Assembly (NCBI RefSeq): GCF_001546855.1
Contig: NZ_KQ958206.1
Location: 126,104-190,103 of the forward strand
Source: Megasphaera sp. MJR8396C
GTDB lineage: Bacteria; Bacillota; Negativicutes; Veillonellales; Megasphaeraceae
DNA: 64,000 nt
Direction: 5' to 3'
A program made the translations under genes and the position numbers. Below are positions 15,033-52,833 of this stretch, piece by piece (within the stretch, counting starts at the first letter, position 1; every line of letters starts with the position of its first letter). The notes under the pieces are model-generated. The model searched no databases and had not been told where the DNA came from. It worked only from the letters and a program-made list of their open reading frames with translations.

Positions 15033-15053
15033 GAACCAGTAAATCAAATAAAG

Positions 15054-15152
15054 AACCATCAAGAGACGACGGAGGGACTGGCCCTATGATGTCGCAGCAA
15101 CCTTCATCAATGAAAGGTGCTAATTCCAGCAGTCTTATACTGGCAGATGGGG
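15054..15152 (+). promoter_or_regulatory. SAM-I (S-box) riboswitch aptamer
   Basis: The conserved core elements appear in order: CAAGAGA, GGAGGGACTGGCCC, ATGATG, GCAGCAACC, and GGTGCTAATTCC. P1 pairs CCATC (15056-15060) with GATGG (15146-15150). P3 is ACCTTCAT with ATGAAAGGT, and P4 is CCAG with CTGG. It binds S-adenosylmethionine and should shut off metK when SAM is plentiful, through the terminator that follows. Confidence 0.95.
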
Positions 15153-15160
15153 ATTGGAAG

Positions 15161-27295: not shown

Positions 27296-27303
27296 TAGAA
27301 ATA

Positions 27304-27427
27304 GTCTTTGAGGCAAGGTGAGAAAGCAGGGCTTTCAATTCCTGACCGGCGGTGACAGTCCGCTAACCCGCAAGGGTTGAACCGATGAAATTTCGGTACC
27401 GACAGTACAGTCTGGATGGGAAAAGAC
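27304..27427 (+). promoter_or_regulatory. FMN (RFN element) riboswitch aptamer
   Basis: RFN landmarks appear in order: AGGCAAGGTGA, ATTCCTGACCGGCGGTGA, CAGTCCGC, GAAATTTCGGTACCGACAGT, and AGTCTGGATGGGA. P1 pairs GTCTTT (27304-27309) with AAAGAC (27422-27427). It should repress the rib genes when FMN is bound. Confidence 0.95.
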
Positions 27428-27447
27428 AGACGACAGTGTCTTTTTTT
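27421..27447 (+). terminator. First hairpin after the FMN aptamer
   Basis: AAAAGACA (27421-27428) with TGTCTTTT (27437-27444) and seven T in a row. Its left arm is the 3' strand of aptamer P1, so it competes with the closed aptamer. Confidence 0.5.
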
Positions 27448-43944: not shown

Positions 43945-44511
43945 ATGATCTATGGATTGCTCTTTTGGGAATTTTTTAAAGTCGGCATCTTCTGTGTCGG
44001 CGGCGGCTATGCCTCTATGCCGCTCATTCAGGCCAGCGTCGTCGACACCTTCCATTGGCTGACCATGAGTGAATTCGTCGATATCTTTACGATTTCGCAG
44101 ATGACGCCGGGGCCGATCGGCATCAATGCAGCGACTTTCGTCGGCACCCGTATCGCAGGTCTTCCCGGGGCCATTGTGGCCACCATGGGCTTTGTCACGC
44201 CGTCCTTTTTCTTGGGCATCATCCTGGCCCGTATCTTTTTGAAGTACGGCGACATCGGACCGATTCGCGGCATCTTAAACGGTCTGCGTCCGGCCGTCGT
44301 AGCCCTCATCTGCGTCGCCAGCCTGAGCTTTATTCTCCTGGCTTTGTGGAATACGGAAGCACTGCCTTCCGATTGGCTGGGCTTCAGCCGCGGCGGTCTT
44401 CTCATCCTCATCGGGGCCATTATCGCCACTCGCAAGAAAATCGGCGTCATCAAGGTTCTCCTCGGTTCCGGTGTCTTAGGCCTGGTACTGGGGATGGCCG
44501 GCCTTATCTGA
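43945..44511 (+). CDS. Chromate transporter family protein, second subunit
   Basis: 188 aa. FCVGGGYASMPLIQA and FTISQMTPGPIGINAATFVGTRIAGLPG are the same ChrA motifs as the first subunit with the more typical PGP. Follows it by 11 bp and likely forms the antiparallel partner. The end overlaps the end of the helicase gene on the other strand by eight bases with no terminator seen between them. Confidence 0.9.
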   Translation: MIYGLLFWEFFKVGIFCVGGGYASMPLIQASVVDTFHWLTMSEFVDIFTISQMTPGPIGINAATFVGTRIAGLPGAIVATMGFVTPSFFLGIILARIFLKYGDIGPIRGILNGLRPAVVALICVASLSFILLALWNTEALPSDWLGFSRGGLLILIGAIIATRKKIGVIKVLLGSGVLGLVLGMAGLI

Positions 44512-47035
44512 TTTCACAATACTCCAGGTTAATACCTTTCAAGAATCGGCTCGGCAGATAGCTCTGACGACCCAATCCTTGGTGCCAGCTTAGATACAGC
44601 CTCTTTTTTGCTCGCGTCATGGCGACATAAAAGAGGCGTTTTTCTTCTTCTATATCCCCTTTTTGGCGGGCCCAATAGGTAGGGAAGATATGGTCTTCTA
44701 AACTGGCCATAAAGACGTAGTCGAATTCAAGGCCCTTGGCCTGGTGAATGGTAATGATGGGTATTTTCGGGTCTTTGGCCAGCATGCTGTCGAGCTCGCT
44801 GTTGGAGAGGGCCGCCATCTTGAGAAATTCGGTCAGGGCGTCGCGAGGATTCTGTCCGGCGTCGTCTGTTTCCTTCGCGATGCGGTAGAGCTTGCGTATA
44901 TTTTCCAGCCGGTCGATATGGTTGGACTCATCAGAGCTGTCGAGATGTGTTTGATACCAAACTTTAACGCCGCAGTCATTCATGACGGACGTAATGACTT
45001 TGATGGGCCGAACCTGGTAGGATAAGCGCCGTAACTCTTCCATTCCCCGGCTGAAGGGCGCAAAGAGCGGGAGATAGATGGCCATCGCGGCTCGGCGGAT
45101 CGGTTCTATCGGGCGAATCTTCTCGTCGATGGCATACATCAGGAGTCCGGCTGTGGCTAAGATGTCGTCGAAGGCGTCGTGCGTCGGTTTATGGTCGATA
45201 GGAAAGTGGTGGCTCAAGGTTTCTAATTTATGATTACGCAAGGTGGGATAAAAGCGGCGGTAGATATCGAGGGTATCGTAATAAGGAAAGTCGGCCCTTT
45301 CAGACATGCCCAGTCGCTGCAATTCGCTCTGGAGGATGGACAGGTCATAGGTTACGTTGTGGCCGACGATGACAGCGTCTTTGGCAAAGTCTAAAAATTG
45401 CGTTAAGGCTTTTTGGGGAGGCACGCCTTCAGCGGCCAGTTTTTCGTCACTGATGTGGTGGACGTAGTACGACGTGCCGACGGGGCGCAGGGCCTTTACA
45501 TAGGTATTAAACTTATCTTTTACCTGCCCCTTGGCATCGAGGCGGATGGCGGCGATTTGGATGATTTCATCCTGGGTCGTGTCCGTGCCTGTACTTTCGA
45601 CGTCGAAGACGACCAGCCGTTCTTGGGATAAGGCTGTCAATAAGAGCCCGTAAGGATCGCCCGTTTGATGGGATAGGGGATCGATAAAATCACTGAGCAT
45701 GAGGCCCACTTTGCGATAGGAATCGCTTTCAATCGTTTCTACCGTACGCCGGCCGATGCGGGGGACGAAGCGCTGGACGATTCGCTTCAGACTGAGGTTG
45801 TCGTGTTTATTCATCAGCAATCGAAGATAAGCCAGGACGTCCTTGCATTCCTGCCGTTTAAACAGGTGAAACTGGTCGATGCAGGTAACCGGCAGCTGCT
45901 GGTCTTGCGGGTACTTTTGGTTGTGCGAGGTAATGCCCATCCAGATGAACTTAGCCTGGCGGTTGTCGCGGACGAGGATGCAGGTCTTTAGGCGCTCTTC
46001 AGGAGGCAGGGCCTTGATTTCCCGGAAAATCCAGCGGGATTCTTCCATCCAGGTGCCGGCTTTATGAAGGACGATGGGTTCGCCGGGATCTTTTGAGGCC
46101 GAGATGCCCCGTTCGGTATAGATGCTCTGGACGGTCACTTTTCCTAAGAGGCGAAATAAGAAGGTCTGACCGGCTTCCAACAGGAGTTGGGTGGACCTGT
46201 AATTGGTGGTGAAGGTAATTTCAAGGGGCTGATAGCCGTCTCGAAATTCTTTCCAAATGTATTCGGGATAGGAGCCACGCCATTCGTAAATGGTTTGGAA
46301 GTAGTCGCCGCAGAGGAGGATGTTGCGGTCCGGGAAGAGGCGGCTGATGACGGTGTATTCGACTTCACTCGTATCCTGCATTTCGTCGACGGAGATGAAG
46401 CGGAACTTTTCCCGCCAGCGGCGGCAGATGGCGTCGTCTTGGAGAAATTCATAGGCCCCGGTAATGAGGTCGGTAAAATCGATGGCATGGTTGTCGGCAA
46501 GGGCAATATCGTACTCCCAGACAAGGTCTTCCCCGTACTCGGAGAGCCAACCTTTGAGGTCATCTTGTATATTGGTAAAATCGCGCAGGCCGGGGATGAC
46601 GCGTTTCTTTTTTTCAAATTCGATGAAGGTCTGGAGTTCCGGTAAGGCCGGACGCGGTGTCATTTTCGTAAGGTCAATGGCAGCCAGAATCTGTTTACAG
46701 TCTTCGTCATCATAGATCAGAAAGTCGTTGTAGCGGTCGCTCTGCCGCTTGGTCTCTTCTTTGATGAGACTGTAGCAGAAACTGTGGATAGTCTTTACGG
46801 TGACGGCGAAACCTTCTTCCGGGACCGTTTCGATGATGCGATTCTTCAGTTCCTTACAGGCCCGGTTGGTAAAGGTCAGGCACAGGATTTCCGACCCCTT
46901 GGCCTTCTTTTGGGCTATGATATGGGCTACCCTGGCTGCCAGGACACGGGTCTTGCCGGTTCCGGCCGGGGCGTTGAGTAAAATCGATTGGGACAGCTCA
47001 TTGACGACTTGCTGCTGCTGTTCGTTTAAATTCAT
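44504..47035 (-). CDS. UvrD/Rep-type helicase with embedded DEDDh 3'-5' exonuclease
   Basis: 843 aa. Superfamily 1 helicase: LNAPAGTGKTRVLAARV (Walker A), LTFTNRACKELKNRI, VDEMQDTSEVEY, GDYFQTIYEWRGS, then IITIHQAKGLEFDYVF and FYVAMTRAKKRLYL. Between helicase parts, at about residues 480-660, lies a full DnaQ-like exonuclease: VVFDVESTGTD (D-E), VGHNVTYDL (D), HDAFDDILA (H and D). Start ATG 47035, preceded by GGAGGA; upstream in-frame codons would cross the pur promoter region. It may process broken DNA. It is divergent from the pur operon. Confidence 0.88.
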   Translation of the reverse strand: MNLNEQQQQVVNELSQSILLNAPAGTGKTRVLAARVAHIIAQKKAKGSEILCLTFTNRACKELKNRIIETVPEEGFAVTVKTIHSFCYSLIKEETKRQSDRYNDFLIYDDEDCKQILAAIDLTKMTPRPALPELQTFIEFEKKKRVIPGLRDFTNIQDDLKGWLSEYGEDLVWEYDIALADNHAIDFTDLITGAYEFLQDDAICRRWREKFRFISVDEMQDTSEVEYTVISRLFPDRNILLCGDYFQTIYEWRGSYPEYIWKEFRDGYQPLEITFTTNYRSTQLLLEAGQTFLFRLLGKVTVQSIYTERGISASKDPGEPIVLHKAGTWMEESRWIFREIKALPPEERLKTCILVRDNRQAKFIWMGITSHNQKYPQDQQLPVTCIDQFHLFKRQECKDVLAYLRLLMNKHDNLSLKRIVQRFVPRIGRRTVETIESDSYRKVGLMLSDFIDPLSHQTGDPYGLLLTALSQERLVVFDVESTGTDTTQDEIIQIAAIRLDAKGQVKDKFNTYVKALRPVGTSYYVHHISDEKLAAEGVPPQKALTQFLDFAKDAVIVGHNVTYDLSILQSELQRLGMSERADFPYYDTLDIYRRFYPTLRNHKLETLSHHFPIDHKPTHDAFDDILATAGLLMYAIDEKIRPIEPIRRAAMAIYLPLFAPFSRGMEELRRLSYQVRPIKVITSVMNDCGVKVWYQTHLDSSDESNHIDRLENIRKLYRIAKETDDAGQNPRDALTEFLKMAALSNSELDSMLAKDPKIPIITIHQAKGLEFDYVFMASLEDHIFPTYWARQKGDIEEEKRLFYVAMTRAKKRLYLSWHQGLGRQSYLPSRFLKGINLEYCEIR

Positions 47036-47124
47036 GTTATTCCTCCGTTCCGTCGCGTCTTTTTTCATTGTAACACAGTCCCTTGACGGGGGATACTGTC
47101 TTACCATAGAAAGGCGGATTTTGA

Positions 47125-47153
47125 TTGACAGCCACCTGTCTTTTTGATAGAAT
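47125..47153 (+). promoter_or_regulatory. Strong promoter of the pur operon
   Basis: Consensus TTGACA (47125-47130), 17 nt, TAGAAT (47148-47153). It precedes the leader ORF by about 45 bp. Confidence 0.75.
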
Positions 47154-47197
47154 CAAAGTGTGTTTGATAAATATTTTAATCAATAAGGAGACGCACT

Positions 47198-47257
47198 ATG
47201 ACAAAATGTTTATGGACAGGTTTGTATGCCGTTTGTAAACAGTCTCCGTGTATCTAA
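47198..47257 (+). CDS. Putative 19-aa leader peptide upstream of purE
   Basis: ATG 47198 with AAGGAG eight bases before it, encoding MTKCLWTGLYAVCKQSPCI, stop at 47255-47257. A terminator hairpin starts eight bases after the stop. Length, ribosome site and position fit a leader peptide for attenuation or translation-coupled control. Three Cys are notable, but there is no run of one amino acid that points to a signal. It could also be a chance ORF. Confidence 0.5.
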   Translation: MTKCLWTGLYAVCKQSPCI

Positions 47258-47262
47258 CTGAA

Positions 47263-47300
47263 AGCCCAAAGGTGATTTGTGTCACTTTTGGGTTTTGTTA
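47263..47300 (+). terminator. Hairpin terminator between the leader ORF and purE
   Basis: CCCAAAGGTGA (47265-47275) with TCACTTTTGGG (47282-47292), one G-U pair, then GTTTTGTTATT. It would stop most transcripts before purE unless bypassed. Confidence 0.75.
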
Positions 47301-47320
47301 TTCCTAAGGAGGGGTCTCTG

Positions 47321-47815
47321 ATGAAGGTAGCTTTAATTATGGGGAGCGATTCTGATTTTCCCGTTATGAAAAAAGCAGTAGCTATTTTTAAAGAATTTGG
47401 GGTAGACTATGAAGTCTTATTGGCATCAGCCCATCGGACACCGGCTGCCGTTCGTGAATTCGTCACGACGGCTGAAGAACGCGGTATCGGGGCTTTTGTC
47501 GTCGGCGCCGGCATGGCAGCTCATCTGCCGGGTGTCGTTGCCAGCTACACGACGCTTCCGGTCATCGGCGTTCCTTTGGAAAGCGGCAGCTTGCAGGGCA
47601 TGGATGCCCTCTTGGCCATCGTTCAGATGCCGTCGGGGATTCCCGTGGCTACGGTTGCCATTAACGGCGCTAAAAATGCGGCTCTCTTGGCCGTTCAGAT
47701 CGGCGCTGTCAGCGATGCCGAATTAGCCAAGAAATACAAGGCTTATCGCGAAAACATGGCCAATGAAGTCATGGCTAAAAACAAGAAATTACAAGAAGAC
47801 GTAAAAGCCCTCTAA
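47321..47815 (+). CDS. purE: N5-carboxyaminoimidazole ribonucleotide mutase (class I PurE)
   Basis: 164 aa. MKVALIMGSDSDFPVMKKA, VLLASAHRTPAAV and VVGAGMAAHLPGVVASYT are the PurE motifs, with the SAHRTP loop that holds the catalytic His. Start at ATG 47321 after AAGGAGGGG; an upstream frame begins in the terminator. purK and purC, often next to purE, are not here. Confidence 0.95.
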   Translation: MKVALIMGSDSDFPVMKKAVAIFKEFGVDYEVLLASAHRTPAAVREFVTTAEERGIGAFVVGAGMAAHLPGVVASYTTLPVIGVPLESGSLQGMDALLAIVQMPSGIPVATVAINGAKNAALLAVQIGAVSDAELAKKYKAYRENMANEVMAKNKKLQEDVKAL

Positions 47816-47860: not shown

Positions 47861-49288
47861 ATGTTTTACGATCCGATTTGGGATAAGCAGCATGAAGAAT
47901 GTGGCGTCTTAGGGATTTACGATAAACACCTTGATATTCCCCGTTACGTGTATTGGGGGCTCTTTGCCCTGCAGCACCGCGGCCAGGAAAGCGGCGGTAT
48001 TGCTTTAACTGACGGCCAGGATATCCATACCTACCGCGGCATGGGACTCATCAGCACGGTCTTTGCCAACGGCGTACCGGAAGAAGAAGGGGGCCCCGTC
48101 GGTATCGGTCACGTCCGCTATTCGACGACCGGTTCCAACAACCCGCGCAATATCCAGCCTTTGGCTGTCTATACGCCCATGGGACAGTTGGCTTTGGCTC
48201 ATAACGGCAACTTGACCAATACCCGCACCCTTCGCGAAGAACTCGACCGCAGCGGCGCTGCCTTCCAGACGACCATGGATAGTGAAATCATCGTCAACCT
48301 CATCAGCCGCAGCCAGAAAGACACGATCGAAGAACGCATCATGGAAAGCATGAACCGCATCCAAGGGGCATATTCCCTGGTCCTCATGACCAAGGATACC
48401 CTCTATGGCGTCCGCGATCCCTACGGCTTCCGTCCGCTGTGCATCGGCCGGACCGAAGAAGGCGGCTGGGTCCTGGCTTCGGAAACGTGTGCCCTCGATG
48501 CCATCGGAGCGAAATTCGTCCGCGACGTTCATCCCGGCGAAATGGTCCAGATTAACGAAAACGGAGTCAAATCGACGATCTTCGCCAAGGCACCGCGCAA
48601 GCAGATCTGTTCCTTCGAATACATCTACTTTGCTCGTCCCGACAGTGTCATCGACGGCCAGGACGTCTATCAGGCTCGCTTGAACATGGGTCGTGAAATG
48701 TGGAATGAAACCCAGTACGATGCCGATATCGTCATTTCCGTTCCCGACAGCGGCAATACGGCTGCCATCGGTTATTCCCAGGCTTCGGGTATTCCCTTTA
48801 AACACGGTCTGATCAAGAACCGCTACATGGGCCGTACCTTCATCAAGCCGAATCAGAAACAGCGAGAACTCGCTGTCCGCATGAAACTCAACGTCGTAAA
48901 ATCCGTCGTACAGGGCAAGCGCATCGTCATGGTCGACGATTCCATCGTCCGCGGCACGACGAGCGGCATCATCTGTAAGCTCCTGCGGGAAGCCGGCGCC
49001 AAGGAAGTCTATATGTGCGTTTCGGCACCGCCGATTAAATATCCCTGCTTCTACGGCATCGACACGTCGGTCCGCAAGGAACTCATCGCCTCGACGTTCA
49101 GCCAGGAACAGATTCAAAAATACATCGGTGTCGACAAGCTGCACTTCATTTCCATCGACGGCCTCAATCGGGCCATTGAACACATTCCCTTGGAAGATAT
49201 GTGCTTAGCTTGCTTCAATGATGATTATCCTACGGATACGCCGCAGATGAACGAGGAAGGAGAAAAATATGCTCTCGAACACAAATAA
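47861..49288 (+). CDS. purF: Amidophosphoribosyltransferase
   Basis: 475 aa. First step of purine synthesis, PRPP and glutamine to phosphoribosylamine. A short propeptide ends before the catalytic Cys in [11 protein letters not shown] (residue 14). [19 protein letters not shown] is the glutaminase core, and [13 protein letters not shown] is the PRPP-binding motif. The cysteines that bind the iron-sulfur cluster appear in the C-terminal half ([20 protein letters not shown]). The end overlaps purM by 20 bp. Confidence 0.95.
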
Positions 49289-50333
49289 AGGATTGACCTA
49301 TGCCGATGCCGGTGTCGATATCGACGCAGGCAATAAAGCCGTCGAATTGATGAAAGACTCTGTAAAAGCTACGTACCGTCCGGAAGTCCTCGGGGACCTC
49401 GGCGGTTTTGGCGGCCTCTTTTCGCTCATGAACAGCGATATTAAAAAGCCGGTCCTGGTCAGCGGCACCGATGGTGTCGGCACCAAACTGCGTCTGGCTA
49501 TCTTGATGGACAAACACGATACGGTCGGTCAGGACTGCGTCGCCATGTCGATCAATGACGTCCTCGTTCAGGGTGCAGAACCCTTATTCTTCCTCGACTA
49601 TATCGCCGTCGGCAAGCTCGACCCGGTTCAGGTCGCCTCCATTGTAAAAGGGGTAGCCAATGCCTGCCAGGAATCGGGCTGCGCCCTCCTCGGTGGTGAA
49701 ACGGCTGAAATGGCCGGCTTCTATGCCAAAGACGACTATGATCTGGCTGGCTTTGGTGTCGGCATCGTCGACCGCGACAAAATCATCACCGGCGAAACGA
49801 TCAAGGCCGGCGACGTCCTCATCGGCCTGCCGTCGACAGGCGTCCACTCCAACGGCTTCTCCTTGGTCCGCAAGATCGTCTTTGAACGCCAGCAGATGAA
49901 GCTCGACCAGTACGTCGATGAATTGGGCATGACCATCGGTGAATGCCTGCTGACACCGACCCGCCTCTATCCGCGTCCGTGCCTGCCGATCATTAAAAAC
50001 TTTACCGTAAAAGGCATGGTCCACATTACCGGCGGCGGTTTCTATGAAAATATTCCCCGCGTCCTTCCTAAGGGCGTCGGCGTCGATATCGATGTCACGT
50101 CGTGGCCGCAGCTGCCGATTTTCTCGCTCCTGCAAAAATGGGGCGGCGTCGATGCGAAAGAAATGTACCGCACCTTCAACATGGGCATCGGCATGATCAT
50201 GATCGTCGATGAAAAGGATGCCGACAGCATTCTCAAGAATTTGGCAGACCGCGACGAAAAAGCTTACGTCATCGGCAAAGTCGTAGACTCGGACGTACCC
50301 GTTACGTTGCGGGGAGGCGTGTTCCATGACTAA
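49269..50333 (+). CDS. purM: Phosphoribosylformylglycinamidine cyclo-ligase
   Basis: 354 aa. It makes aminoimidazole ribonucleotide. [68 protein letters not shown] and [16 protein letters not shown] are all family motifs. AAGGAG before the ATG. Overlaps purF by 20 bp and purN by 8 bp. Confidence 0.96.
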
Positions 50334-50940
50334 GAAAAAGATGGTCATTTTTGCCTCGGGCCGCGGCTCCAATGCCATTGCCCTCCACGATGCCGTCGAA
50401 GCCGGTACCATCAAGGCCGACATCAAGGCCCTGGTCTGCGATATCCCCGGCGCGCCGGTCATGGATCGGGCCCGGGAATGGGGCATACCGGTCATCTTAG
50501 CCGACCGCAAGGCCTTTGATTCGAAAGAAGCTTTTGAAGCATATATCCTCGACGCCATTGCCCCTTATGAAGCCGACGTCATCTGCCTGGCCGGCTTCAT
50601 GCGCCTCTTGAGCGGCGATTTCATCTCCCATTATGAGCACAAGATGCTCAATATCCATCCGGCCCTCTTGCCGTCCTTCCGCGGCCTCCACGCTCAGCGT
50701 CAGGCTATTGAAGCCGGCGTCAAGATTGCCGGCTGCACGGTTCACTTCGTCGTGCCCGATATGGATGCCGGGCCGATTATCCTGCAGTCGGCCGTGCCGG
50801 TCTATGAAGATGATACGGAAGATACGCTGGCAGCTCGGATCCTGACGAAGGAACATCCGACCTACATCAAGGCAGCGGCACTCTTTTGTGACGACAAACT
50901 GACGGTCCGCGGCAATGTCGTCATGGGAACACAGGAATAG
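50326..50940 (+). CDS. purN: Phosphoribosylglycinamide formyltransferase
   Basis: 204 aa. It formylates GAR with 10-formyl-THF. [42 protein letters not shown] (catalytic Asn and His) and [16 protein letters not shown] (catalytic Asp) are present. GGGGAGG before the ATG at 50326. Confidence 0.95.
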
Positions 50941-50953
50941 GAGGTAGGTTAGC

Positions 50954-51559
50954 ATGAAGGTAAAACGCGCACTCATTAGTGTATCTGATAAAACGGGCGT
51001 CGTCGAATTGGGCAAAGCCCTGGCGGCTCTCGGCATTGAAATCATTTCGACGGGCGGCACCATGCGCACCTTAAAGGAAGCGGGCGTACCGGTCATCGCC
51101 GTTCAGGACGTAACGGGCTTTCCGGAAATGATGGACGGCCGCGTCAAGACCTTGAACCCCAAGATTCACGGCGCCATTTTGGCGGTCCGCGACAATCCGG
51201 AACACGTGAAAGCCATGAAGGATCACGATATTACGCCCATTGACTTGGTCGTCGTCAACCTCTATCCCTTCCAGCAGACCATTGCCAAACCGAATGTCAC
51301 CCTGGCTGAAGCCATTGAAAACATCGACATCGGCGGTCCCTGCATGGTCCGCGCTTCGGCCAAGAACAATAAGTACGTCGCCATCGTTACCAATCCCGAT
51401 AAGTACAGCGAAATCATTTCCATCCTCCAAAAAGACGGCGCTTTTTCCGATGAATACCGCTTGGAATTAGCTCAGGAAGCCTTTCATCATACGGCCGTCT
51501 ACGATACGGCCATTGCGGCATATCTGGCTGAACAGGTTGAGAAGGGGGCTGCAAAGTGA
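50954..51559 (+). CDS. purH: IMP cyclohydrolase, standing alone (N-terminal half of PurH only)
   Basis: 201 aa, against about 510 aa for ordinary Pur[91 protein letters not shown] and the C-terminal [21 protein letters not shown] are the MGS-like cyclohydrolase domain, complete. It ends cleanly, with a stop overlapping the purD start. The AICAR formyltransferase half is absent here, so that step needs a separate gene elsewhere. Not a frameshift: no trace of the second domain follows. Confidence 0.93.
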
Positions 51560-52833
51560 TGAAGGTAGCAGTCATCGGCGGCGGCGGCCGCGAACATACC
51601 CTGGCCTGGAAATTAGCGCAGAGCCCGAGTGTCGATGCCCTGTACGCCATTCCCGGCAGTGCAGCCATGGCTGACGTTGCCAAGTGCGTCGATATTTCCT
51701 TATCGGACCTCGAAGGCATCGCCGATTATGCCGTTTCGGAAGGCATCGACATGCTCGTCGTCGGTCCGGAAGTTCCCTTGACGGAAGGCTTAGCCGACGT
51801 GGCTCAGGCCAAGGGCTTAGCTGTTTTCGGCCCCAACAAAGCGGCGGCTCAAATGGAAGGCTCCAAGGTCTTTGCCAAGAATATCATGAAGAAATACCAG
51901 ATTCCGACGGCAGCCTATGCCTCCTTTACCGACGGAGACGCGGCGAAAGCCTACATCCGCGAACAAGGCGCTCCTATCGTCGTTAAAGCCGACGGCCTGG
52001 CTGCCGGCAAAGGCGTCGTCGTAGCTCAGACCGAAGAAGAAGCCATCGACGCCGTCAATGCCATGATGGAAGACCATATTTTCGGCGCTTCCGGCGGCCG
52101 CATCGTCATTGAAGAATGCATGGTCGGAGAAGAAGCAAGCCTTCTGGCCTTCGTCGATGGCAAGACCATCGTGCCCATGATTTCGGCTCAGGACCATAAG
52201 CGCATCTTCGATAACGATGAAGGTCCCAATACGGGCGGTATGGGTGCCTATGCCCCGGCTCCGGTCTTTACGCCGGCCATCCAAAAAGTCGTCGAAGACA
52301 CGATTTTACGACCCGTCGTAGACGGCCTCAAAGCCGAAGGCATTACCTATCAGGGCTGCCTCTATGCCGGCCTCATGATTACTGAAGACGGCCCGAAAGT
52401 CGTCGAATTCAACTGCCGTTTCGGCGACCCGGAAACGCAGGCCGTCCTGCCCCTTCTTGACGGCGATTTGGCGCAGATCATGTACGCCTGCACCAAGGGG
52501 ACCTTGTCCCCGGATATGGTTCACTGGAAGGATGCCTCTGCCTGCTGCGTCATCATGGCCTCGGCCGGCTACCCGGCTTCGTCTCATAAGGGAGACGTCA
52601 TCAGCGGCCTCGACGGCATCGACAGCGATGATACGATGGTATTCCATTCGGGAACGGCCAAACAGGATGGGGCCTATGTGACCCATGGCGGCCGTGTTCT
52701 CGGCGTAACGGCTGTGGCACCGGATCTTAAAAGTGCCATTGAAAAGGCTTATGACAAGGTGGATCAGATCCACTTTGACGGCCAGCAAGTCCGCCGTGAC
52801 ATCGGTGCCAAAGGATTGAAACACTTGCCGTAA
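51559..52833 (+). CDS. purD: Phosphoribosylamine-glycine ligase
   Basis: 424 aa, ATP-grasp enzyme. VAVIGGGGREHTLAWKL, VGPEVPLTEGLAD, IVVKADGLAAGKGVVVA, EASLLAFVDG, GPNTGGMGAYAPAP and EFNCRFGDPETQAVLP are the GARS motifs. The GTG at 51556 is an alternative start; ATG 51559 overlaps the purH stop by one base. Last gene of the operon. Confidence 0.95.
   Translation: MKVAVIGGGGREHTLAWKLAQSPSVDALYAIPGSAAMADVAKCVDISLSDLEGIADYAVSEGIDMLVVGPEVPLTEGLADVAQAKGLAVFGPNKAAAQMEGSKVFAKNIMKKYQIPTAAYASFTDGDAAKAYIREQGAPIVVKADGLAAGKGVVVAQTEEEAIDAVNAMMEDHIFGASGGRIVIEECMVGEEASLLAFVDGKTIVPMISAQDHKRIFDNDEGPNTGGMGAYAPAPVFTPAIQKVVEDTILRPVVDGLKAEGITYQGCLYAGLMITEDGPKVVEFNCRFGDPETQAVLPLLDGDLAQIMYACTKGTLSPDMVHWKDASACCVIMASAGYPASSHKGDVISGLDGIDSDDTMVFHSGTAKQDGAYVTHGGRVLGVTAVAPDLKSAIEKAYDKVDQIHFDGQQVRRDIGAKGLKHLP

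Follow-up and report, generated by a model that had tools for sequence, protein, structure and literature searches.

A conserved open reading frame beside a terminator in the purE leader of Megasphaera and its relatives: a probable translation-coupled attenuator

The purine operon in the 64,000-nucleotide stretch of Megasphaera sp. MJR8396C DNA analysed here (the window) is preceded by a leader in which a short upstream open reading frame (uORF) ends just before an intrinsic terminator. We regard this leader as a ribosome-dependent transcription attenuator for which translation of the uORF matters and the encoded peptide does not, a reading to which the comparison of leader sequences leads us to assign a probability of about 0.68. 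The parts of the leader, their conservation, the spacing between the uORF stop codon and the terminator and the lack of peptide conservation can be read directly from the sequences; judged by these, the leader is real and conserved, and it probably functions as a translation-coupled attenuator, not one that senses a peptide.

Layout of the purE leader

An earlier note on this DNA had described a consensus promoter, a 19-codon ORF with the motif AAGGAG, an 11-bp hairpin with a T-rich tail and then purE, and all of these are present as it had placed them. The leader and its surroundings comprise the following features:

47125..47153, + strand: sigma-70-type promoter, read from the sequence (TTGACA at 47125-47130, 17-nt spacer, TAGAAT at 47148-47153)
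47185..47190, + strand: Shine-Dalgarno (SD) sequence AAGGAG of the uORF, 7 nt 5' of the ATG, read from the sequence
47198..47257, + strand: uORF, 19 codons plus TAA (ATG at 47198-47200, TAA at 47255-47257)
47265..47299, + strand: intrinsic terminator (CCCAAAGGTGA at 47265-47275, loop, TCACTTTTGGG at 47282-47292, T-rich tail at 47293-47299)
47321..47815, + strand: purE, first gene of the operon (ATG at 47321; TIGR01162, 200.7 bits against a cut-off of 149.6)
47861..52833, + strand: remaining pur operon genes, all NCBIfam matches, as given in the next five lines
47861-49288, + strand: purF
49269-50333, + strand: purM
50326-50940, + strand: purN
50954-51559, + strand: purH, N-terminal (IMP cyclohydrolase) part only
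51556-52833, + strand: purD
44504-47107, - strand: divergent neighbour, a UvrD/Rep-like helicase into which a DEDDh exonuclease (DnaQ/PolC-like) domain is inserted (residues ~491-662)

The uORF encodes the peptide MTKCLWTGLYAVCKQSPCI, which contains three Cys and one Trp, and the 5' arm of the terminator, whose stem comprises 11 bp, begins 7 nt 3' of the uORF stop. Because the neighbour 5' of the leader lies on the opposite strand, the hairpin belongs to the purE leader and not to the end of an upstream operon, and a terminator in this position would halt transcription ahead of the operon. A search of the leader interval against Rfam yielded no match at the gathering score and nothing credible among the weak matches with E up to 10, which agrees with the earlier impression that no purine or ZTP riboswitch core is present.

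Conservation of the leader and of the uORF position

With a covariance model of the leader, 16 of the 17 genomes of the window's family each gave a single credible match, invariably located at purE. The sole family genome without a leader is 78% complete and has no purE match either, and purE is preceded by a homologous leader in every family genome in which it was found. Further copies within a genome were considered and rejected, as none was credible and the weak matches represent chance or the antisense of the terminator. Among the matches listed, a locus near-identical to that of the window was found in Megasphaera sp. UBA1696.

Both the nucleotides and the layout are conserved among the family leaders. 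In all 15 leaders compared, TTGAC(A/C) and a -10 box are found at the equivalent place, and the GGAG of the uORF SD is kept (15/15). The SD-preceded uORF comprises 19-22 codons, with 28 in a single leader (L014); its stop is located 3-10 nt 5' of the terminator arm in 14 of the 15 leaders and inside the terminator in L014. Under strict rules, an SD-preceded ORF abutting the terminator was detected in 11 of 13 family leaders compared with 0.66 expected if the hairpin is held fixed and the sequence 5' of it is shuffled, counts that are not independent since the leaders share ancestry. Among shuffled leaders, the share with a suitable stop is 6-33%, depending on the family genome.

RNA structure of the leader

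The uORF region folds as one long imperfect hairpin, with P1 at its base and P2 inside:

47189..47196, + strand: 5' strand of P1, AGACGCAC, overlapping the SD and ending 1 nt before the ATG
47248..47255, + strand: 3' strand of P1, GTGTATCT, running into the uORF stop codon
47209..47217, + strand: 5' strand of P2, TTTATGGAC, the codons for LWT
47231..47239, + strand: 3' strand of P2, GTTTGTAAA, partner of 47209-47217

P1 joins the SD and start sequence to the end of the ORF; it contains one C-A mismatch in the window genome, and 92.5% of its cells are paired in alignment A1. In the family leader alignment, 92% of the P2 cells are paired, with U-G to U-A changes, and 99% of the cells of the terminator stem, in which two pairs have changed on both sides. 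Over the ten family leaders aligned, 95% of cells pair as compared with 93.0 +/- 0.5 in shuffles, four pairs have changed on both sides against 0.7 +/- 0.7, and slid control structures pair at 28-50%. Further pair types are not above the control and the covariation score is only slightly so; the structural support is thus moderate. The duplex between the SD and the ORF end is more stable than in shuffles, with a Fisher combined p of 1.3e-6 for 16 distinct leaders, a value that overstates the strength of this result because these leaders are related. Pairing of P1 is slight in L015 and L025. An alternative 5' hairpin between the transcript start and the SD region looked good by eye in some leaders and was rejected, being not above shuffles overall (p 0.01-1.0).

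Could the structure itself be the sensor? P1 and P2 might constitute a new RNA element, either a riboswitch aptamer or a protein-binding hairpin, with the ORF being incidental or merely the start-masking switch of the aptamer. Such an element would account for the strong sequence conservation of the P2 strands and terminator arms in the ten family leaders, for the masking of SD and start by P1, and for the high pairing and the excess of pairs changed on both sides. However, the fold is a plain rod that lacks a conserved multi-branch core and has no Rfam match, the P2 sequence has been lost from L011, L014, L015 and L016, and an open ORF with a fixed stop position would be unexpected of a bare aptamer. 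We consider this explanation unlikely.

An open reading frame is kept, the peptide sequence is not

The distance between the uORF ATG and the terminator amounts to 66, 67, 69, 74, 75 or 76 nt among the family leaders. The indels are thus not multiples of three, and equivalent nucleotides are read in different frames in different leaders. For example, L004 and L005 show a 1-nt deletion relative to L001, by which the whole C-terminal peptide is changed while the downstream nucleotides are nearly unchanged; the uORF stop in these two leaders is a TGA slightly 3' of the position of the TAA in L001. There is no conservation of the peptide past an LWTG motif near the start, and the C-terminal halves differ. 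The independence from the peptide that characterizes pyrBI-type attenuators is therefore seen here as frame-shifted peptides over conserved nucleotides, and a nascent peptide that is conserved close to the site of stalling, as is typical of ermC and tnaC, was not found among the family leaders, whose frames shift.

The earlier note had proposed to look for conservation of the peptide at the protein level with synonymous changes, and had pointed to the three Cys and the single Trp as the only odd composition. The first expectation fails because the peptide is unconserved past LWTG, close relatives read conserved nucleotides in different frames, and Cys is not enriched. With 22 Cys in the real uORF frames against 18 and 19 in the two alternative frames and 16.1 +/- 3.3 in shuffles, this residue is hardly more common than elsewhere, and the composition is not telling. 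An enrichment in codons of a single regulating amino acid was not apparent either, with no residue above z 2.2 in 12 distinct family uORFs compared with other frames and shuffles. Conservation of the peptide, or sensing through Cys or Trp, was rejected in view of the frame shifts, the divergent peptides and the unenriched codons.

More broadly, the leader might be an arrest-peptide or amino-acid-codon attenuator, in which a stall at Cys or Trp codons or via the nascent peptide chooses between terminator and antiterminator. In line with this, LW(T/A) is found at codons 5-7 in eight distinct family leaders, and L010 retains LWT with a Leu codon that carries two synonymous changes (CTG in place of TTA) at a place where the 3' strand of P2 has diverged; a short peptide signal through LWTG, kept in most leaders, may thus exist. 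Four leaders, however, are without LWTG, and where the motif is present its codons double as the 5' strand of P2. The divergence of everything after LWTG, the lack of a clear enrichment of any amino acid relative to other frames and shuffles, and the lack of a conserved antiterminator pairing also argue against this possibility; in folds of the released 3' half of the uORF, no common pairing with the 5' arm of the terminator was found. Taken together, we judge an attenuator of this kind improbable.

Loss of the ORF in relatives, which according to the earlier note would speak against its proposal, was not observed: start, open frame and stop position are all kept. Control of readthrough by translation of the small ORF, as suggested there, stands as the best reading; the part ascribed to the peptide finds no support.

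Known purine regulators

PurR (PF09182) is encoded in Veillonella and in the fourth family of the order. No searched genome of the window's genus encodes it, and it is likewise missing from the Dialister-like relatives and from genome G041; G016, a genome of the sister genus, shows a sub-threshold match only. The purine riboswitch (RF00167) was not found in any searched genome of the window's family or in the Dialister-like relatives searched. PurH is split: the part encoded in the operon is an IMP cyclohydrolase of 201 aa, and the AICAR transformylase is encoded by a separate gene elsewhere (L279). In the genome of the window this gene is preceded by a ZMP-ZTP riboswitch (RF01750, 60.2 bits), an arrangement found in four Megasphaera genomes including this one; the riboswitch is not located before purE. 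In one Megasphaera genome, a CRISPR array (CRISPR-DR4) is located near the AICAR transformylase gene (L280:34-726). Elsewhere in the window, Rfam identified an FMN riboswitch (27300-27431, + strand, 90.3 bits) and a SAM riboswitch (15053-15153, + strand, 75.8 bits).

In the open-access literature we found no description of how Megasphaera, Dialister or Veillonella regulate their purine synthesis, and this seems to have been undescribed so far. A constitutive arrangement that senses nothing and only holds readthrough at a constant level or supplies purE with ribosomes would be compatible with a leader in which no sensor part was identified and whose sequence is fitted by partial termination alone, but layout, spacing and hairpin are conserved family-wide before a normally regulated pathway, here without PurR, and we regard this as very improbable. 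We suggest tentatively, and with more doubt than confidence, that the uORF has been selected for its openness and its stop position, with the amino acids being free, and that it stands in where PurR is missing.

A model for attenuation

We infer that a ribosome blocks the terminator in this leader, in the following way. If no ribosome is present, the nascent leader would fold into the P1/P2 hairpin, the terminator would form and transcription would end before purE. A ribosome that begins translation before the start site is closed off by P1 would open the hairpin; having arrived at the stop codon, 3-10 nt from the terminator, it would cover the 5' arm, and the polymerase could read into purE. 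The outcome would hinge on loading before closure of the hairpin, i.e. on how fast the polymerase moves through some 60 nt or on the supply of initiation. As this loading race would be set by P1, the candidate signals are the level of purine NTPs and fMet-tRNA. Perhaps the likeliest is the former, acting through the pace of RNA polymerase, since low GTP or ATP would slow the polymerase and give the ribosome time to load and to keep close; next might come the supply of initiator fMet-tRNA or 10-formyl-THF.

In E. coli, a terminator was about 90% efficient with a stop codon 28 bp upstream and less than 10% efficient with the stop at 5 bp, and its efficiency was restored by uncoupling translation or by wider spacing (PMC4824070). 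The spacing of 3-10 nt kept in the purE leaders falls within this silencing zone, and thus a ribosome on the uORF should permit readthrough, and its absence termination.

Comparison with known attenuators

A close parallel to the purE leader is found in E. coli pyrBI: each precedes a nucleotide-synthesis operon and has a leader ORF at a terminator, and in pyrBI the peptide is unimportant and closely following translation prevents the terminator, as we propose for purE. In pyrBI, a pyrimidine operon, the leader ORF of 44 codons passes the terminator, and UTP is sensed through a U-rich pause. In contrast, the uORF of the window's family ends just before the terminator and begins within a long hairpin. 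The Dialister-like leaders and some of those from Veillonella, with ORFs that overlap the terminator, resemble pyrBI more closely. By its layout and its peptide independence the leader would fall into a pyrBI-like class. The pyrBI system is discussed in PMC4824070. A similar plan is known from the Streptococcus fthC uORF motif (uORFC-39-1), an SD-led uORF between hairpins and a terminator before a one-carbon gene, for which the supply of initiator tRNA was suggested as the signal (PMC11109978); gene and lineage differ from those of the purE leader. Attenuators of the trp/his type share the leader ORF, a first hairpin over the ORF and the intrinsic terminator that follows, but in the purE leader neither an antiterminator nor a series of regulatory codons was found. 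In Bacillus subtilis the same pathway is controlled by PurR with PurBoxes and by a guanine riboswitch; Veillonella retains PurR, whereas neither PurR nor a purine riboswitch was found in the genus of the window.

If true, the proposed mechanism would represent the purine equivalent of pyrBI attenuation and would explain control of the pathway in lineages that have neither PurR nor a purine riboswitch. It would also be a clear example of a uORF that is conserved through selection for its position and not for its peptide, a type of uORF that searches for conserved peptides miss.

purE leaders outside the family

The Veillonella purE leaders contain an SD-led ORF of 22-33 codons whose end abuts the terminator, lies within it or follows it closely, together with PurR-box-like sites, and several Dialister-like leaders contain ORFs of 43-55 codons overlapping the terminator; the layout in these two groups was judged by reading the leaders and not by statistics, as most of their terminators were missed by the hairpin finder. 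In the closely related Veillonella leaders L140-L145 and L029, single-base changes in the terminator loop decide whether the uORF stop falls within that loop or beyond the T-run. G041 (leader L131) has a 20-codon ORF ending just before the terminator and a perfect SD helix (GACGCACU/AGUGCGUC). Despite the similar plan, peptides and sequences are unrelated among the family, Veillonella, Dialister-like and G041 leaders. Another genus of the Veillonella family shows PurR-box-like sites and no such ORF, and in the fourth family of the order purE is located directly 3' of another gene.

A general occurrence in Bacillota was also considered, with 5 of 19 hairpins against 0.54 expected among the matches listed, and was overturned by a survey of 120 other Bacillota purE leaders, in which the ORF-terminator layout was found in 2 of 29 cases against 2.0 expected, i.e. 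at chance level. Scattered candidates of the same layout were seen in Fusibacter, Ruminococcus, Pseudoflavonifractor and two related Clostridiales, and an independent origin of the same plan in unrelated Clostridia is possible. In the leaders L058, L059, L049, L060 and L064 of such unrelated Clostridia, an SD-led ORF ahead of purE ends no more than 3 nt from a terminator; the uORF of Fusibacter paucivorans (MSSQGVSISQHNIQKIILCQYHIGFIIVP) is an example.
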